This document shows, piece after piece, positions 28,452 through 34,919 of a stretch of DNA of 64,000 bases. The stretch is from IMG/VR virus record IMGVR_UViG_3300021364_000001, positions 62,001 to 126,000 of that record. The stretch is one strand, 5' to 3'. Position 1 is the stretch's first letter; the number at the start of each line of letters is the position of its first letter. The position numbers and the translations under genes are program-made. This DNA comes from a virus. The notes beneath the pieces were generated by a model, which saw only the letters and a list, made by a program, of their open reading frames with translations, was not told the origin of the DNA and ran no database searches.

Positions 28452-29078
28452 TCAGGTGCCGAAGGTCAGAGTTGCAGCGCCGTCACTGATGACTTCTTCT
28501 GTACCACCCGCTGAGGTAATCTTGACGCGATACTTGTAGCCATCGAGAGAATCATCAGCGAGACCACTGTAAGCAAGAGTTGCGGTCGTGAAGTCTGCAT
28601 AAGTGATACCTGCATCAGTGTCAGCGGCGATGTCAACCCAACGGACAGTAGCAGATGCGGTTTGGCGCTGCCACTGATAGGAGAGAGCACCAGGGGTTCC
28701 AGTTGTGCTAGTGGTGAGGGTGAATGTACCAGCACCAGAAGCGGATGTAGAAGCAGCGGGTTGTGCGTCGATGACGACTGCCGATGCTACATCTGCTGCG
28801 ATGGTGTCGTCGCTCAGAGTCTCGTCTGCGTTTGCCTCAGGGTTACTGAGAACCATCAGGTGCTCTGCCTTATGGCGTGTGCGACCATTGTGATCAGTGT
28901 ACGTTCTGTACGCCCACCAACCAGGAGCAGTAATACCGCGAGACTTGTTCTCGTCCAGTCCTGCCTCGGTGGCGTCTACGAAAACGATCGTCTCGGTAGC
29001 GGATCCAGATCCGTTACCACGGGTTCTGCTAACTGCTGTTTGATTTGTAGTTGAGTCTACTCTCCCGTAAAGAGACAT
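28452..29078 (-). CDS. Virion protein with Ig-like domain
   Basis: 208 residues. The N-terminal 80 residues (MSLYGRVDSTTNQTAVSRTR..., GITAPGWWAYRTYTDHNGRT) are typical of small cyanophage structural proteins, and the rest forms one Ig-like beta sandwich: GALSYQWQRQT, VDIAADTDAGITYADFTTAT, LDGYKYRVKITSAGG. Such domains decorate capsids or tails and may bind host surface sugars. A perfect late promoter is 32 bases upstream and GGAG precedes the start, supporting late expression. Confidence 0.83.
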   Translation of the reverse strand: MSLYGRVDSTTNQTAVSRTRGNGSGSATETIVFVDATEAGLDENKSRGITAPGWWAYRTYTDHNGRTRHKAEHLMVLSNPEANADETLSDDTIAADVASAVVIDAQPAASTSASGAGTFTLTTSTTGTPGALSYQWQRQTASATVRWVDIAADTDAGITYADFTTATLAYSGLADDSLDGYKYRVKITSAGGTEEVISDGAATLTFGT

Positions 29079-29109: not shown

Positions 29110-29117
29110 TATTTATA
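29110..29117 (-). promoter_or_regulatory. Late promoter, TATAAATA
   Basis: Perfect consensus (TATAAATAAG) on the minus strand, 32 bases before ATG 29078. It overlaps the U-tract of the terminator just upstream, so termination and re-initiation share sequence. Confidence 0.75.
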
Positions 29118-29386: not shown

Positions 29387-29785
29387 TTACTTGTACCCTT
29401 TTCTCTTGCGGTCGTGATCGATCGTCATCTGCATCATCTTTTGCTTCATACGCTCCTTTGACTTCTCCTTTGCTTTGGAGTCATCTGCCTTAGGGGCGGT
29501 GCCGCAAGATGCTTCGGCAACTGCTTCGGTCTCTTCCTTGCGAACGTCGTCGCCAGGCTCGTACCACTTGCCGTCGCCATCAGAGTCCTGCCAACGCTTT
29601 CCTGCCTTGGCAGCCTTGATATGCTTCTCTTTGGCTTTCTTCTTGGCGGATTCTCGGAGTGCCTCCACCTCAGAACGAATAGATTTTCTTAGAGATTCAG
29701 ACATGAGATCCTCTTTCTTTGGGTTAATGATGACGTTTCCTTTTTTCTTTGTGGTCGTCACCTCTTTGTTTTGATCAGGTTTCAT
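29387..29785 (-). CDS. Charged protein with EF-hand-like loop
   Basis: 132 residues, extremely rich in Lys and Glu and helical. One segment, RWQDSDGDGKWYEPGDDV near residue 65, contains a DxDxDG-type calcium-binding loop (D-S-D-G-D-G-K-W-Y-E). The C-terminal half is low complexity. Common in cyanophages as a hypothetical; function unknown. The gene lies between two late-promoter units and is coupled to the gene at 29782 by four bases. Confidence 0.75.
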   Translation of the reverse strand: MKPDQNKEVTTTKKKGNVIINPKKEDLMSESLRKSIRSEVEALRESAKKKAKEKHIKAAKAGKRWQDSDGDGKWYEPGDDVRKEETEAVAEASCGTAPKADDSKAKEKSKERMKQKMMQMTIDHDRKRKGYK

Positions 29786-31296
29786 TCGTTGATTCCTAAT
29801 TCTGCTCGCCAGTTATATGTAGGTTCCTCGCTCATGCGACGTGCAACGTTGCGAGCACCACGGGATACTGCACGAGCAGCACCACCGACAACCTTCTTAA
29901 TACCTGACTTAATTCTATCGCGCAGTCGTACACGATTCTCGTTGCCACCACCAGAGGAGGAGGACGACGAGGAGTCACCAGGAGACTGAGACTTGGAGAC
30001 AGAGGAACCACCAGCAGGCTTGCTGTCGCCGCCAGATCCACTTGCACCACGCTCGTATCCCTTCTTGAAGTTGCTGACACCTGCCTTAGCAGCACGACCA
30101 GCAGCACCAGCAGCATACCCTGCTGCCTTAGCAGCACCAGCACCTGCCTTCTTCAAACCAGACTTGACGGCAGATCCAGCAGACTTCAATGCTGCCTTCA
30201 TCTTCTCGCCACGGCTGCTGCTAGAAGAAGAACCACTACCAAGGCGACTACGTGCCTCGGCACCAGCGTCCTTACCTGCGGTCTGACCTTCGCCAGATGC
30301 AGCAGAGGTCTTGTTCTTCAAACGAGCGGCATTGACCTTAGCAGGACTGGTGACCTCAGTCAACAGTTCCACATCATCGATCATGTCCAGTGCTTCGGTG
30401 AGATACTCACCATCCAGTTCCATCAGTGCCTCAACACAGATGTCATGGAGTTCTTCAAAGGAGAAAGAATCGAATGCTTCATCAGAGATAACATCTTCGA
30501 TGAATGCTTCAAACTCTTCCTTCTTCAAATTCGCTTTGCGGTATGCAAGATCTGCTTTGGTGCCTTTGTCCATCTTACCTTGGGACTTGGGCTTAGTCTT
30601 GCCACCTTCGTCAGGTTGGGAACCAGGGTTTGCTGCCTTAACTCTACGACCATGGGTGTACTCAGCACCACTCATCTTAGAGTCGCCAGAGATCATCTTT
30701 CCACCTTGGGAGCGATCATCCTTGTACTCAGCAGAAGACTGACCGTGCTTACCTTTGTAGCGTTCGTCAATCTGCTCCTCTTCCTTGACACAGTTAGGCA
30801 CTTCCTTGCCACCTTTCATCTTGGTGCCTTGTGCCTTGTAACCTGCCCAGCATGTCTTAGCGCCCACGTTCTTACGTGCTTGCTTCATACCCTCGTGGAG
30901 TTCGTCGATGTCAACGTGCTCACGTTGCATGTTGAGACCGATGTCCTCGGGTGCCTTGGCAGTCTTTTCCCCTTTCTTGCCTACAACCGAATAACGACCG
31001 TCTGCTTTCTTGCCAGTGATGACCATAGACTGACCACCCTGAGAAATCACACGACCGATGTTACGATCATCTTTGAACTTCTGCTTGTTCTTAGAGATCA
31101 GATCTTTCTCAATCGGGAACCCAGCATAACCTTCAACGACTTCCTCATGGGAGTCGATGATGTCTGCTACTGTCAGGACTGCCTCATGCATTCTGGCAGT
31201 AGGTGCCTTCTTGCATTCGTATACACAGTCGAGAATAGTTCTTTGCTCTGCCTCAGAAAACCCAAGCAGGGCGGCAGATACCTTGATATCGAGCAT
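29782..31296 (-). CDS. Large late hypothetical protein with Ala/Gly/Ser-rich tail
   Basis: 504 residues starting MLDIKVSAALLGFSEAEQRT. The first 110 residues look folded; residues 110-290 are polar and lysine-rich (GGQSMVITGKKADGRYSVVG, THGRRVKAANPGSQPDEGG); an acidic helical patch follows (EEFEAFIEDVISDEAFDSFS); the last 170 are low-complexity serine, glycine and alanine/lysine repeats (RAAKAGVSNFKKGYERG, SSSSSSSGGGNENR). This suggests an unfolded or DNA-binding tail, possibly a packaged or scaffold-related protein. A late promoter box lies 24 bases upstream of ATG 31296; no ribosome site is seen. Confidence 0.75.
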   Translation of the reverse strand: MLDIKVSAALLGFSEAEQRTILDCVYECKKAPTARMHEAVLTVADIIDSHEEVVEGYAGFPIEKDLISKNKQKFKDDRNIGRVISQGGQSMVITGKKADGRYSVVGKKGEKTAKAPEDIGLNMQREHVDIDELHEGMKQARKNVGAKTCWAGYKAQGTKMKGGKEVPNCVKEEEQIDERYKGKHGQSSAEYKDDRSQGGKMISGDSKMSGAEYTHGRRVKAANPGSQPDEGGKTKPKSQGKMDKGTKADLAYRKANLKKEEFEAFIEDVISDEAFDSFSFEELHDICVEALMELDGEYLTEALDMIDDVELLTEVTSPAKVNAARLKNKTSAASGEGQTAGKDAGAEARSRLGSGSSSSSSRGEKMKAALKSAGSAVKSGLKKAGAGAAKAAGYAAGAAGRAAKAGVSNFKKGYERGASGSGGDSKPAGGSSVSKSQSPGDSSSSSSSGGGNENRVRLRDRIKSGIKKVVGGAARAVSRGARNVARRMSEEPTYNWRAELGINE

Positions 31297-31318
31297 TGAT
31301 CTAGGGAAAAGTATAGTA

Positions 31319-32368
31319 TTATTTATTCTTGATAGACTTTTGGTTCTTAGTGAACTCACTGAACTTCTTAATTTCCTGTCCAGGAGTCATGTTTTGAACC
31401 GCCATTCTATATGTATCGGTGCCGACTTTCCAGTCATTACCACTGCCATCGTCAGCAGAATAATTGCTTTGGTTGTTTGGGTCGCGTACCTCGGTCACAT
31501 GCTGCAACCATGCACGGTGCTCACCGCCGAGACCATCTTCCATGATGATGTAATTAGGACCACGGTGTACGATCTTACCGAGCATACCGCTGTCATCATG
31601 CTCTACGATAGCACCCACCTTAAAGATGTGTTCAAGCATGTAGTAGTCGCGGAAAGATTCGAGATCTAGTTTAGGAGCATAGTCCCAGACAGACTCTGCA
31701 ACTGCCTTCTCCTTCTTCTTGGCAGGTTTCTTCTCTGCTTTCTTCGGCGGGACCATACCGTCCAGCACATGCTGCATCAACTCTTTGGACCTTTTGTATC
31801 CACCAGTTCCTGCATGAAAGGAGTCGTGGTCACCCCCTTGGGCATGGGCTCGCATCTTGGAAGCAGACAAGGTTTCGATAGGATCATCACTATCGTCATT
31901 TCGAGCACCAGCAGACTTAATGTTAATTGACTTGAAGTCATAGTGCTTACCATTATACTTCTGGGTCAACTTCTCAAACTCTTTCACACGGTCATCACCA
32001 ACTACCATGGTGACGTGCTCATGTCCCTCATCATGGAGGTCACGGAGAATGTCGAAGATGTTTCTATGCGCCTCGGAGTTCTGGATAGCATCCTTATGCT
32101 GCTTGAACATACCACGCATGTGTTCAATCTTCTGCTCGGGATGCAGAGGATTCTTCTTGTGGTCCTGAGATCTAGAAGGGTAGATACGATAGTTGCCAGA
32201 GTCACCAGCGTGTGCCTTCACAGCATCAAGTAACTTCCCATGTCCAGCATGAGGAGGATTGAATCTGCCGAAAGTGATGGCAACATGCTTGTCAATTACT
32301 TCATTCTTTTTTGAAGTTGCTTTCTTGGCAGCCTGTGCTGCTTCGATAATGAACTGACGAAATCTCAT
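31319..32368 (-). CDS. HxGH nucleotidyltransferase-like protein
   Basis: 349 residues. Near residue 30, ITFGRFNPPHAGHGKLLDAV contains the (H/T)xGH nucleotide-binding motif of the cytidylyltransferase/adenylyltransferase (NadM-like) superfamily, followed by YPSRSQDHKKNPLHPEQKIE and TMVVGDDRVKEFEKL; the ISTxS-type site may be ETLSASKMR. The last 150 residues (FKVGAIVEHDDSGMLGKIVH) form a small SH3-like beta domain. It may transfer a nucleotide to a protein, a cofactor or an RNA; the substrate is not evident. ATG 32368 overlaps the previous stop as ATGA. Confidence 0.75.
   Translation of the reverse strand: MRFRQFIIEAAQAAKKATSKKNEVIDKHVAITFGRFNPPHAGHGKLLDAVKAHAGDSGNYRIYPSRSQDHKKNPLHPEQKIEHMRGMFKQHKDAIQNSEAHRNIFDILRDLHDEGHEHVTMVVGDDRVKEFEKLTQKYNGKHYDFKSINIKSAGARNDDSDDPIETLSASKMRAHAQGGDHDSFHAGTGGYKRSKELMQHVLDGMVPPKKAEKKPAKKKEKAVAESVWDYAPKLDLESFRDYYMLEHIFKVGAIVEHDDSGMLGKIVHRGPNYIIMEDGLGGEHRAWLQHVTEVRDPNNQSNYSADDGSGNDWKVGTDTYRMAVQNMTPGQEIKKFSEFTKNQKSIKNK
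31320..31327 (-). promoter_or_regulatory. Late promoter, AATAAATA
   Basis: Minus-strand GAATAAATAATACT, 24 bases before ATG 31296 and overlapping the stop of the upstream gene. Confidence 0.58.
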
Positions 32369-33561
32369 TTGCCCCAATCTTTTGCTACGGTGAAGTTTGC
32401 ACGAGAGAATTCAAGTCTATCAACAAGTTTGACAGCAGTGCCATCCTTGATTGCCACAAATCCTTCTGGACTAGTGACCTTGTATCCGTTCTCATCTTCT
32501 AGGAATGTGCCAACCCCCTCAATCTTTTTGAGACGGTTGATGATCTGTTCTTTCGCGGTGATAAGATTCTTGAATCCTGCCAGCGCACGATATATCTCAG
32601 ACTTATTATTATTTAGGTAATCAATCGCTTCCTGTTTCTTAATCTGCCACTTCTCTTTTGCCTTGGGTGTCTTCACACCTGCTTCTTTCATGGCATAACG
32701 AGACTCAACAAACAGTTTGAACTCAACTAGCATTTGCTGAGTAGAGGTGGGGATCTTTCCTTCCTTGATCTTCTGATTGAAGAAGATCTTAAACAGAGCA
32801 GCAGGTTCCATACCCGTCAGTCTGCCACCGATCTGGTTCAAGAAATTGCGAGACGCCCTGAGGTTCTGCTTAGCGACACGCATACTGTTATTGATCTTGC
32901 TCATCTCAGAAGGACTGAGGTTTGCGATGCCATTGGTGTTCTGGAACTCGGCAGAGAATACTGCCACATCAGAAACACCTTGAAGATTACGAACGTTAGC
33001 ACCAAAAGATGCCGCCATCTGAGCAAGTGTGGGTCCATTGTATGTTGTGTGGAAGACGATACCAACCTTAGACTTACCTACCTTAGCACCCATCTCAGTC
33101 GCTTTCTCAACACAGTAAGTAATCGTATTAGGTTTGAACTTATAGCACTGCTTACCACCCATGACAGTCAGAGGAGGAGTGTCTGTGTAGAGCAGGTCCC
33201 CTTGCAGCACACCAGTGATAGGAAGTTTAGACAGGTAGTCATAGGCAGCGATCAACTTAGGATGCACACCTGTACCACCGTACCACATGTCAATCTCTTC
33301 ATGTGAATAGCAGACCTTGGGTTCGGTCTTGGCGAACACAGATTTAGTACCGACAAAGAACATGTCAGTCTCAGGGTCGATACCACAGATGATAGCAGGA
33401 GCACCGTCCCACTTCACTGTCACCTTAGTATTGCCACCACCCTTACCAGTGGTCAGCATACCTTTGAGTCCTTCTAGGAATCCTAGTGCGTTCTCAGCAC
33501 CAGCATAACCGTTGTTGAAGATGTCATCTTCCAGGTGTTCGAGGTGAGTATTCTTGCTCAT
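32365..33561 (-). CDS. DUF6267-like, ligase/nucleotidyltransferase-like protein
   Basis: 398 residues. I recall this family as DUF6267. VTVKWDGAPAIICGIDPETD near residue 45 resembles ligase motif I (KxDGxP/R), and near the end SPEGFVAIKDGTAVKLVDRL resembles motifs IV (EGhV) and V (xhK). These are the nucleotide-binding positions of covalent nucleotidyltransferases (DNA/RNA ligases, capping enzymes), so a transferase or ligase that forms an enzyme-AMP intermediate through K47 or nearby is inferred, not shown. Its neighbours are an HxGH transferase and a 442-residue unknown. Confidence 0.72.
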   Translation of the reverse strand: MSKNTHLEHLEDDIFNNGYAGAENALGFLEGLKGMLTTGKGGGNTKVTVKWDGAPAIICGIDPETDMFFVGTKSVFAKTEPKVCYSHEEIDMWYGGTGVHPKLIAAYDYLSKLPITGVLQGDLLYTDTPPLTVMGGKQCYKFKPNTITYCVEKATEMGAKVGKSKVGIVFHTTYNGPTLAQMAASFGANVRNLQGVSDVAVFSAEFQNTNGIANLSPSEMSKINNSMRVAKQNLRASRNFLNQIGGRLTGMEPAALFKIFFNQKIKEGKIPTSTQQMLVEFKLFVESRYAMKEAGVKTPKAKEKWQIKKQEAIDYLNNNKSEIYRALAGFKNLITAKEQIINRLKKIEGVGTFLEDENGYKVTSPEGFVAIKDGTAVKLVDRLEFSRANFTVAKDWGK

Positions 33562-34886
33562 GGTTGGACTCCGACTTTATCGCGGTAGGGGTTGCCGATG
33601 GATGACTTTTCTCTCAGGTAATACTCATCATTGGGTTTGAGGTTGTTCTTCAAGTGGTTCTCCATGTAGAAGACAGGCATTCCTCTGTTCGTTGCGAACT
33701 TGTAGTAGGTCACCTCCTGCATCACGAAGTTCTGGATCACGTTACGGTAGACCAAAGCACCCTCCTTACTGATCTTACGAAGTGCCATCTGGCAGATGAG
33801 AGATGCGATACCGACCTGTCCACTGCTGTGCTTGGGTGCGTTCCAGTAGTCCTTGGCATCAGTATAGTACATGTCTGCCAGTTCCAACCACCAGGACTGT
33901 GCCGCTTTGACATCTGTCTCTGATGGGTCACCACCTTTGATCATCTTATCAATGTTGGTCACCACGTTACGAGGCAGTTTACTTTTGAGAGTAGTATCTT
34001 TGGCGATGACTTCCAGTGCCAAGAACGATCCTTGCTTCACTCTATTGTCGGCCAAGACTTTGAGGATCTTGAACTCAACAGTCTTCTTATAATCTTTAAC
34101 CCACTTAGAGTTTTTCTTCTTGTCAAGCAGACTGATAATGTCTTGTGGTTTGACAACGTTAGTTGTCTTGCTGATCTTCTTCACTGAAAAAGGATACTCT
34201 CTATCCTCATCGTCATAGATCATGAAGTCAATCAATGGTTCATTACCAGCACCAGGAAGAAAGACCTGTGCATTCTTCTTGGTTAGTTTTCCATACCCTA
34301 GTTTGTCAAGTTCAGCAGCACCACGTTCTAGGACACACAGAGGTGCAGTGATCTCAGAGAAGTCTTTCTCAATGTTGTTCATAATATCAATGTACTCAGA
34401 CGCTGCTAGGTCTGCATACGCTTTGACCAGTTCTTTCTTCTCAGTAGCACCATGATGCATACAGAACTCAGTCAGTTCTTTCAAGTATTCTTTGATGACC
34501 AGTTGTAGATCATCACGCTTCTCAATAGCAGCAAGAACTTTCTTGTAGTAAGTTTCAAATGACATCTTAGTGTCCAAAGGGATGTCAAACTCCTGAGGTT
34601 TCAACTCAGGCATCTTCTTCTTCCCTGTGGCAGACCTGGGTTTCCCCAGCATGGGGGTGGAGATCCACCCCGTCTTGTCATTGTCATAGATGACTTCTAT
34701 TCTAGCCTGGTAACTGTTACCACTGATGGGTTTCACATGAACCCCACTTCCTTTGGCAACAGTCCCTACTTTTTTTGTACTCTTTGCACCGTCGTAGACT
34801 GGGATATCCTTCTTGGCAAGAATCTCAAACCCTTTCATGTAGTGACGCTTGTAGTCGTCCCACGCTTCTTTGATTGTCCTTGCCAT
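33558..34886 (-). CDS. Large hypothetical protein with N-terminal SH3-like region
   Basis: 442 residues. The N-terminal 80 (DIPVYDGAKSTKKVGTVAKG ... GWISTPMLGK) look like a bacterial SH3 domain; a helical middle follows. Around residues 215-240, EPLIDFMIYDDEDREYPFSV then KKISKTTNVVK recalls a restriction-fold nuclease core (D, then x-V-K), but the acidic residue before VK is serine, so I do not claim a nuclease. A late promoter box is 24 bases upstream. It heads a three-gene coupled unit with the ligase-like and HxGH genes. Confidence 0.72.
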   Translation of the reverse strand: MARTIKEAWDDYKRHYMKGFEILAKKDIPVYDGAKSTKKVGTVAKGSGVHVKPISGNSYQARIEVIYDNDKTGWISTPMLGKPRSATGKKKMPELKPQEFDIPLDTKMSFETYYKKVLAAIEKRDDLQLVIKEYLKELTEFCMHHGATEKKELVKAYADLAASEYIDIMNNIEKDFSEITAPLCVLERGAAELDKLGYGKLTKKNAQVFLPGAGNEPLIDFMIYDDEDREYPFSVKKISKTTNVVKPQDIISLLDKKKNSKWVKDYKKTVEFKILKVLADNRVKQGSFLALEVIAKDTTLKSKLPRNVVTNIDKMIKGGDPSETDVKAAQSWWLELADMYYTDAKDYWNAPKHSSGQVGIASLICQMALRKISKEGALVYRNVIQNFVMQEVTYYKFATNRGMPVFYMENHLKNNLKPNDEYYLREKSSIGNPYRDKVGVQP

Positions 34887-34903: not shown

Positions 34904-34919
34904 GAGACTATTTAGTCTC
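34904..34919 (-). promoter_or_regulatory. Palindromic late promoter, CTAAATAG
   Basis: The CTAAATAG box (34908-34915) is centred in the perfect palindrome GAGACTA-TT-TAGTCTC and overlaps the stop of the upstream gene. It lies 24 bases before ATG 34886. Confidence 0.55.

Follow-up and report, generated by a model that had tools for sequence, protein, structure and literature searches.

What does a late operon of a marine T4-like cyanophage have to do with nucleotidyl transfer? The question is raised by the window, a stretch of 64,000 nucleotides from a 187-kb Kyanoviridae record, which is marine T4-like cyanophage DNA with a late operon (Table 1). Marine T4-like cyanophages rank with the most common viruses of the ocean. 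An initial annotation had placed here three coupled genes and a fourth one, encoding nucleotidyltransferase-like, ligase-like and unknown proteins. All four ORFs (442, 398, 349 and 504 aa; hereafter X, D, C and K) are found on the minus strand at the positions claimed, with the motifs present, and the first three follow each other with successive 4-nt overlaps. We propose, at about even confidence, that they form an operon expressed late and encoding T4-type head cargo, in which X is nuclease-like, D is ligase-like, C is NMNAT-like and K is an internal head protein. D and C share an operon almost everywhere and are fused in some phages (one 598-aa ORF; an S-PM2 protein of 591 aa). In S-SCSM1, the gene of the D family, DUF6267, lies ~134 kb (record coordinates) away from the X and C genes; therefore, D and the X-C pair need not act together.

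Table 1. Features of the operon and its surroundings, in window coordinates.
Feature	Position	Strand	Remarks
X, 442-aa protein	33558..34886	-	SH3b at the N-terminus, PD-(D/E)XK-like towards the C-terminus; slot hypervariable
D, 398-aa DUF6267 protein	32365..33561	-	Putative ligase-like covalent nucleotidyltransferase; PF19782 E 1.5e-132
C, 349-aa (H/T)xGH nucleotidyltransferase	31319..32368	-	NMNAT-like; SH3-like C-terminal part
K, 504-aa protein	29782..31296	-	Basic, low-complexity; homologue S-SZBM1_139 in virions of S-SZBM1
208-aa neighbour	28452..29078	-	Homologue S-SZBM1_136 is a virion protein
Late-type promoter core of X-D-C operon	34909..34915	-	CTAAATA
Late-type promoter core of K	31320..31326	-	ATAAATA
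Late promoter of 208-aa neighbour	29110-29116
X, putative nuclease active site	34179..34229	-	D220 to K236 (D...SVK); E178 nearly invariant upstream
D, motif I	33397..33414	-	KWDGAP (K50-P55)
D, motifs IV-V	32416..32466	-	EGFVAIKDGTAVKLVDR (E366-R382)
C, N-terminus	32342..32368	-	MRFRQFIIE, T4-type capsid-targeting sequence; predicted prohead-protease site after Glu9
C, (H/T)xGH motif	32240..32269	-	GRFNPPHAGH
C, SxSxxR motif	31850..31867	-	SASKMR; S168 and R173 100%, S170 97%

Late promoters had been predicted before the 442-aa and 504-aa genes. Both cores were found, and they are conserved in homologues as compared with controls when [AC]TAAATA is counted at ≤70 nt upstream of a gene. The motif precedes all 32 non-redundant X homologues, 89 of 102 genes in the X slot (shuffles: mean 4.6, maximum 10) and 44 of 55 K homologues, and is mostly missing at the flanking genes (helicase, 0/70; MazG, 1/39). 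At the level of sequence, late expression of the operon is supported.

The start of C, MRFRQFIIEA, matches the mapped grammar of the T4 capsid-targeting sequence MKTYQEFIAEA, with the same spacing. The latter forms the start of T4 IPII and IPIII; in IPIII, targeting is governed by residues 4 and 7 and processing by residues 8 and 10 (PMC9026906). The pattern is present in 66 of 92 non-redundant C N-termini, in 38 spellings, and in none of the helicase (0/69) or MazG (0/44) N-termini; it is a loose one, which matches 70 of the 733 other ORFs in the loci (~10%). Within the window, it is absent from D, X and K.

The presence of a C-type nucleotidyltransferase in virions has already been reported, and published virion proteomics of other phages contains homologues of both the HxGH and the 504-aa proteins, in line with the link to the virion first suspected for the module. 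Mass spectrometry of S-SZBM1 virions detected homologues of C (S-SZBM1_140), K and the 208-aa neighbour; S-SM1 virion proteomics detected T4-GC190, which is C; and S-CREM2 virions contained ORF154, a cytidylyltransferase of the C family. Additionally, ORF90-93 of S-SCSM1 are annotated there as virion proteins, ORF91 being C, and we found that ORF90 matches X-slot cluster 0 (4.6e-99). Peptide coverage of the C homologues is given as ~11-13%, and the authors caution that co-purification with virions could account for enzymes of this kind, leaving open whether they are packaged. D was seen in none of the readable virion datasets; S-SZBM1_141 and _142 are missing from the S-SZBM1 table. We regard the packaging of C in the head as well supported and that of the nuclease-like slot protein as moderately supported, and we infer the packaging of D in this phage, the enzyme activities, ejection, the substrates and the coupling through NAD+ discussed below.

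The HxGH motif noted in C is present, although its first His is replaced by Thr in roughly half of the relatives (30 H, 36 T), and C matches Pfam CTP_transf_like (PF01467) above the cut-off (E 3.6e-8). Its closest curated family is nicotinate/nicotinamide nucleotide adenylyltransferase (3.3e-5); however, C stays below the NMN adenylyltransferase equivalog cut-offs (TIGR00482, 24 vs 112 bits; TIGR01526, 17.6 vs 341), and phmmer gave no match for C in the PDB. A role as a cytidylyltransferase of cell-wall synthesis has been suggested for the C-type protein (PMC9146016); it was set aside because NMN adenylyltransferases are the nearest curated families.

D is a full-length member of DUF6267 (PF19782; 442.9 bits against a gathering score of 27, covering model positions 1-376 of 376). 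Its KxDGxP and EGhV/K motifs were confirmed: the tested residues (KxDG, QxD, HT, EG and KxxxR) are unchanged across all 98 aligned homologues, and it is such conservation whose lack had been named as a refutation of the initial reading. The K, D and G of motif I are also invariant across 12 diverse members. Within the family, QGD, EGxV and KxVxR are invariant, and the order of the motifs and the IV-V spacing fit the ligase superfamily, but Asp stands in motif III and motif V reads K-x-V-x-R. Structure prediction, which had been suggested for comparison with ligase folds, gave a suggestive match to solved ligases that is statistically not significant: covalent nucleotidyltransferases account for 14 of the best 50 PDB matches (best E 0.39), and no solved structure was matched at E ≤ 1e-3. 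In BFVD, an annotated RNA ligase was matched at E 8.6e-4. With T4 Alt as the negative control, hhalign aligned the motif IV-V region of D weakly with T4 RNA ligase 1, at a score above 60 of 60 shuffles; the alignments with T4 Rnl2 and gp30 fell outside the motifs and were discarded as evidence. The RNA_lig_T4_1 profile matched one of 98 DUF6267 members (E 0.017), and a DUF6267 profile search against PDB sequences gave no match. An OB domain with motif VI, a trait of DNA ligases, is missing in D, in which the chain ends 16 residues past R382 and the model has one helix after motif V. From the fold and motif evidence, a covalent nucleotidyltransferase of the RNA/DNA-ligase-like type is the favoured assignment for D. 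DUF6267 has 38 matches in bacterial genomes, nearly all in marine MAG or single-cell contigs, which are probably phage contigs.

Nucleotidyl-enzyme intermediates had been expected for the enzymes of the module in general. NMNAT-type HxGH enzymes pass the nucleotide on directly and form no such intermediate; thus, only the 398-aa protein would form one.

The 442-aa protein begins with an SH3-like domain, as first noted, and the fold search confirmed it as SH3b (bacterial SH3b protein 2hbw, E 3e-4). Its listing as an unknown overlooked a PD-(D/E)XK nuclease-like signature farther along the chain, where D220, S234 and K236 are invariant among 35 homologues. The model shows a helix-strand-strand-strand-helix order with E178, D220, S234 and K236 conserved, Ser replacing Glu, where PD-(D/E)XK nucleases have E, D and (E/D)xK on an alpha-beta-beta-beta-alpha-beta core. 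The fold search matched SH3b alone and left the nuclease-like part unmatched, and searches of Pfam, NCBIfam and PHROG returned nothing except SH3_3 below the cut-off. The slot occupied by X holds at least seven families that are mutually unalignable but have a common D...(S/E)xK signature, D and (S/E)xK being among the most conserved residues across the seven. Since an all-against-all profile comparison gave no significant match among the nuclease-like families, we claim for them, on sequence, a shared signature and not common descent. One family has a weak match to Pfam PDDEXK_5 (E 0.0067), and one member resembles HNH nucleases.

Since C bears a T4-type head address tag, infection probably brings at least some of a nucleic-acid-processing kit into the cell together with the phage DNA. 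In the mechanism we propose, the N-terminus of C would direct it into the prohead core, where the prohead protease probably trims it after Glu9. K, whose basic low-complexity tail is plain from the sequence, would be a basic internal head protein, and the virion would carry C and K, joined in one phage or more by an X-type protein, all of them delivered into the cell along with the DNA. Once inside, X, a PD-(D/E)XK-type protein in a fast-changing slot, may cut nucleic acid; D could charge itself with AMP on Lys50 and then seal or adenylylate ends; and C may make or regenerate an adenylated cofactor. Our guess is that C makes NAD+ from NMN and ATP, which would couple it to an NAD+-using D. The boldest form of this proposal is a tag-loaded, virion-delivered cut-and-seal system of T4-like marine phages. 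It would consist of a hypervariable nuclease passed effector-like between phages, DUF6267 as a novel ligase family and an NMNAT that regenerates NAD+ for the ligase. In the opening minutes of infection, the system would act on nucleic acid of the host or of rivals, or repair the incoming genome; we think the proposal unlikely to hold in this full form.

Other explanations separate the genes from one another. DUF6267 might be a replication or repair ligase that replaces the missing gene 30 in marine T4-like phages, its neighbours being only loosely connected, which we consider rather unlikely. Profiles of ATP- and NAD-dependent DNA ligases gave no match in the 187-kb record, and likewise none in 12 of a further 13 phages with DUF6267, and a standard DNA ligase or Rnl1 family is absent from 12 of 13 DUF6267 phages; T4 gp30 relatives occur in 2548 phage records, with Synechococcus outside the ten commonest names; and in S-WAM1 and S-SM1, the DUF6267 gene lies between those of the gp41 helicase and the gp61 primase. 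However, DUF6267 appears to be transcribed via X from a late-type promoter and not an early or middle one, its start resembles the capsid-targeting sequence in some lineages, Stenotrophomonas phage DLP6 encodes a DNA ligase in addition to DUF6267, and the host provides a ligase. It is unlikely, too, that C is simply a virion-delivered NMNAT by which the host's NAD+ is sustained or replenished in the early phase of infection, with D and X as unrelated neighbours. The closest curated family of C suits this role, which published authors have proposed, and phage NAD+ restoration pathways are known (NARP1; PMC12774641), but the score of C is far under the family cut-off, the low peptide coverage suggests few copies, and the D-C fusions and nearly universal D-C operon argue against an enzyme that stands by itself.

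The resemblance of D to RNA ligases raises a further account, in which the kit serves RNA (tRNA) repair or tRNA attack, as with T4 RNA ligase 1 and PseT against anticodon nucleases. The best sequence resemblance of D is to motif IV-V of T4 Rnl1, and the significant viral fold match and the single RNA_lig_T4_1 match point the same way; we nevertheless judge it quite unlikely, as these links are all weak, no kinase or phosphatase partner was found in the operon, and the X families look like DNA nucleases, not ribonucleases. Finally, X could be a selfish homing-type endonuclease at this site, D and C functioning independently. The slot switches family while its neighbours remain 60-90% identical, and there is the HNH-like member; however, X stands under a conserved late promoter with codons overlapping D, a slot protein is listed in S-SCSM1 virions, and 166 loci have an upstream ORF in the slot, empty slots not being the rule, which makes a homing element improbable. 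Our preferred reading remains the late operon of head cargo.

In the literature searched, no earlier report was found of the ligase assignment of DUF6267, the nuclease slot or the capsid tag, and the accessible parts of the earlier virion papers on C contain no discussion of the targeting sequence or of the linked D and X. Relatives of DUF6267, a family so far without assigned function, occur in 467 phage records and those of its partner in 558, and they are near-universal in marine T4-like cyanophages. If DUF6267 is a ligase, it would make up for the lack of a DNA ligase in most such phages. The capsid-targeting sequence on C would settle whether the enzyme is packaged or co-purified, a question raised in two papers, and finding a variable nuclease slot among head-cargo genes would suggest a weapon or counter-defence that is delivered during infections in the open ocean.

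The proposed enzymes can be compared with known systems. As in the adenylation domains of T4 RNA ligase 1, RNA ligase 2 and DNA ligase, the KxDG, EG and K motifs of D occur in order; the motif IV-V spacing of 12 is that of T4 Rnl1 (EGYVAVMKDGSHFKIK), and RNA/DNA ligase adenylation domains come first in the fold-search ranking of D. Unlike the T4 ligases, D carries a large helical insertion that separates motif IIIa from motif IV; it has QGD in place of the usual motif III glutamate, a chain that stops soon after motif V and no significant PDB match. X resembles PD-(D/E)XK nucleases in its predicted secondary structure and in the order of its conserved E, D and (S/E)xK; it differs from most of them, as do most slot families, in having Ser where the ExK motif has its first Glu/Asp, and its own sequence has no significant structural or Pfam match. 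C has the G-R-F-N-P-P-(H/T)-x-G-H and SxSxxR motifs of the PF01467 NMN adenylyltransferase/cytidylyltransferase family, to which it adds a capsid-targeting N-terminus and an SH3-like C-terminal domain, while lying below all NMNAT equivalog cut-offs. With the T4 internal head proteins (IPI, IPII, IPIII and Alt), the operon has in common late expression, a tag of 9-10 residues (MRFRQFIIE in C vs MKTYQEFIAE), homologues in the virion and a variable cargo set (PMC3012670, PMC9026906), although D and X are untagged in the window. The known T4 cargo comprises an ADP-ribosyltransferase, an inhibitor of restriction and proteins whose role is unknown, whereas the cargo proposed here links a nuclease-like, a ligase-like and an NMNAT-like protein.

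The window lies at positions 62001-126000 of a 187,193-bp virus record, and its nearest phages are Synechococcus S-WAM1 and S-SZBM1 (Kyanoviridae). The gene order helicase-MazG-X-D-C-K-208-aa virion-type gene is kept in the large majority of >100 metagenomic relatives covering the region. An [AC]TAAATA core located ≤70 nt from the gene start was found for 32/32 non-redundant X homologues, and 89/102 X-slot genes (shuffled sequences: mean 4.6, maximum 10). It also precedes K homologues in 44/55 cases and those of the 208-aa gene in 37/38, but is scarce before helicase (0/70), MazG (1/39), D and C genes. Because the core stands upstream of X, K and the 208-aa gene but of few D or C genes, X-D-C look like a single late operon beginning at X, with K and the 208-aa gene each having its own late promoter.

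Features of the region in window coordinates
Feature	Position	Strand	Description
X	33558-34886	-	442-aa protein
D	32365-33561	-	398-aa DUF6267 (PF19782) protein
Second conserved block of D, N-x-H-L-E-H-x-E-D	33508-33561	-	residues 1-18, before motif I, on first helix
C	31319-32368	-	349-aa (H/T)xGH nucleotidyltransferase
K	29782-31296	-	504-aa basic protein
208-aa gene	28452-29078	-	neighbour of K

D matches Pfam DUF6267, a family of unknown function. In 12 diverse members (identity down to 29%), K50xD52G53A54P55, Q120xD122, H171T172xY174, E366G367xV369 and K378xV380xR382 are invariant, and in 98/98 closer relatives not one of the eleven tested motif positions varies; these blocks are arranged like motifs I, III, IIIa, IV and V in covalent nucleotidyltransferases. 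Short DUF6267 forms have little of the helical insert that separates IIIa from IV. An AlphaFold2 model of D (pLDDT 80.7) gave no significant fold match in the PDB, where 14 of the best 50 matches were RNA ligases, DNA ligases or LigA adenylation domains and the remainder mostly helical; a viral structure library returned one annotated RNA ligase (8.6e-4). T4 RNA ligase 1 is the sole ligase sequence that aligns with D at the motifs (EGYVAVMKDGSHFKIK in D vs EGFVAIKDGTAVKLV), with a score of 23.0, higher than that of the reversed sequence (16.1) or of any of 60 shuffled copies (at most 21.8). The record holding the window has no match to PF01068, PF01653 or PF09414, and among 13 other DUF6267 phages a PF01068 ligase occurs in DLP6 only and PF01653 and PF09511 in none, T4 being the positive control for the PF01068 and PF09511 searches. 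D is likely to be a covalent nucleotidyltransferase; the chances that it is specifically a polynucleotide ligase are about even. Most positions of its N-terminal second block do not vary among the 98 relatives, and we know of no counterpart of this block in ligases.

C, an NMNAT-like enzyme, has a CTP_transf_like match above the Pfam cut-off and an NMN adenylyltransferase match far below the curated-family cut-off; its motifs G-R-F-N-P-P-x-x-G-H and S-A-S-x-x-R are nearly invariant (n=67), the first histidine being H or T. D and C form one polypeptide in L197 (598 aa) and, to judge from a fold match and the protein's name, also in S-PM2 (591 aa), a fusion that suggests joint work of the two enzymes; coupling of C and D through NAD+ is rather improbable. 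P-TIM40 and P-RSM6, in which a single tblastn alignment spans both parts, were excluded from the fusion count because these are annotated as separate genes. In S-SCSM1 (L240 and W01:221406-222275), X and C are adjacent and DUF6267 lies ~134 kb off in record coordinates, which weakens a strict three-part complex; in ACG-2014f, DUF6267 is likewise apart from C. Stenotrophomonas phage DLP6 (non-marine, non-Kyanoviridae) shares the X-DUF6267-C gene order, its C being 722 aa long, and has its own DNA ligase besides DUF6267.

X of the window carries a bacterial SH3 domain by fold search. In its C-terminal region D220, S234 and K236 are invariant and E178 nearly so, placed in helix-strand-strand-strand-helix order in the predicted structure. 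The slot holds different proteins in other phages: X varies while its neighbours stay similar, both in S-WAM1 (D 80%, C 89%, X just 33%) and in L027 (D 74%, C 80%, X from another family). Seven slot families (3 to 30 members each) gave no significant alignment with each other, yet share D + (S/E)xK among their most conserved positions; of the 11 columns that reach ≥90% in the largest family, roughly half belong to this signature (P139, D141, I142, S218, L219, K220), and one family has a canonical ExK with a PDDEXK_5 match at 0.0067. X is a putative nuclease-like protein occupying a variable slot; slot genes of some freshwater-type loci are not nuclease-like. One singleton (L192:82-1944, 621 aa) resembles HNH nucleases, with an HNH-like stretch replacing the PD-(D/E)XK-like signature (HNH_4, E 0.076).

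In published virion work, C, K and the 208-aa protein have homologues among the S-SZBM1 virion proteins, those of D and X being absent at the reported threshold; T4-GC190, which corresponds to C, is reported in S-SM1 virions, and a cytidylyltransferase with the two following ORFs in those of S-CREM2. S-SCSM1 ORF89 to ORF93 are annotated as virion proteins, ORF91 being C, whose tag reads MKSFLQFLKEA, and ORF90 a member of the S-WAM2/P-SSM7 slot family. The authors of this work warn that such proteins possibly co-purify with virions. We consider packaging very likely for C, reasonably probable for an X-type protein in at least some phages, and possible, if slightly doubtful, for D. K residues 137-304 (a 170-aa stretch) are 60% identical to S-SCSM1 ORF89 (L240:2221-3192), a virion protein of different build; this common stretch gives K the look of a mosaic whose pieces are exchanged between virion proteins. 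The X-D-C-K products would be head cargo that processes nucleic acid, a scheme in which we infer catalysis, substrates and ejection alike.

In T4 IPIII, Y4 and F7 serve targeting and I8 and E10 processing (PMC9026906). The start of C, MRFRQFIIEA, reads as a head-targeting tag: it resembles MKTYQEFIAEA of T4 IPII and IPIII, with F3, F6, I7 and E9 spaced alike. This pattern fits 66/92 non-redundant C N-termini (38 spellings) and none of the helicase, MazG, K, 208-aa or window-type X proteins, although it is loose and ~10% of other ORFs also fit; the strict version is found in the window on C alone. In other lineages D carries it in 15/111, and in Melnitz-3 both X and D fit (MQGFKTFLSEA, MINFSKYITED), with a related start on C (MKKFSEIIEAR). 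In jumbo phages, among them Klebsiella phage RaK2, a DNA adenine methyltransferase gene adjoins that of a short C-like nucleotidyltransferase whose start lacks the targeting sequence. Open literature gave no paper for DUF6267 by name and only a T4 review for cyanophage with capsid targeting sequence; the ligase-like assignment, nuclease slot and targeting sequence thus appear unreported in the open papers covered by the search. A virion-associated NMNAT/cytidylyltransferase is already known.
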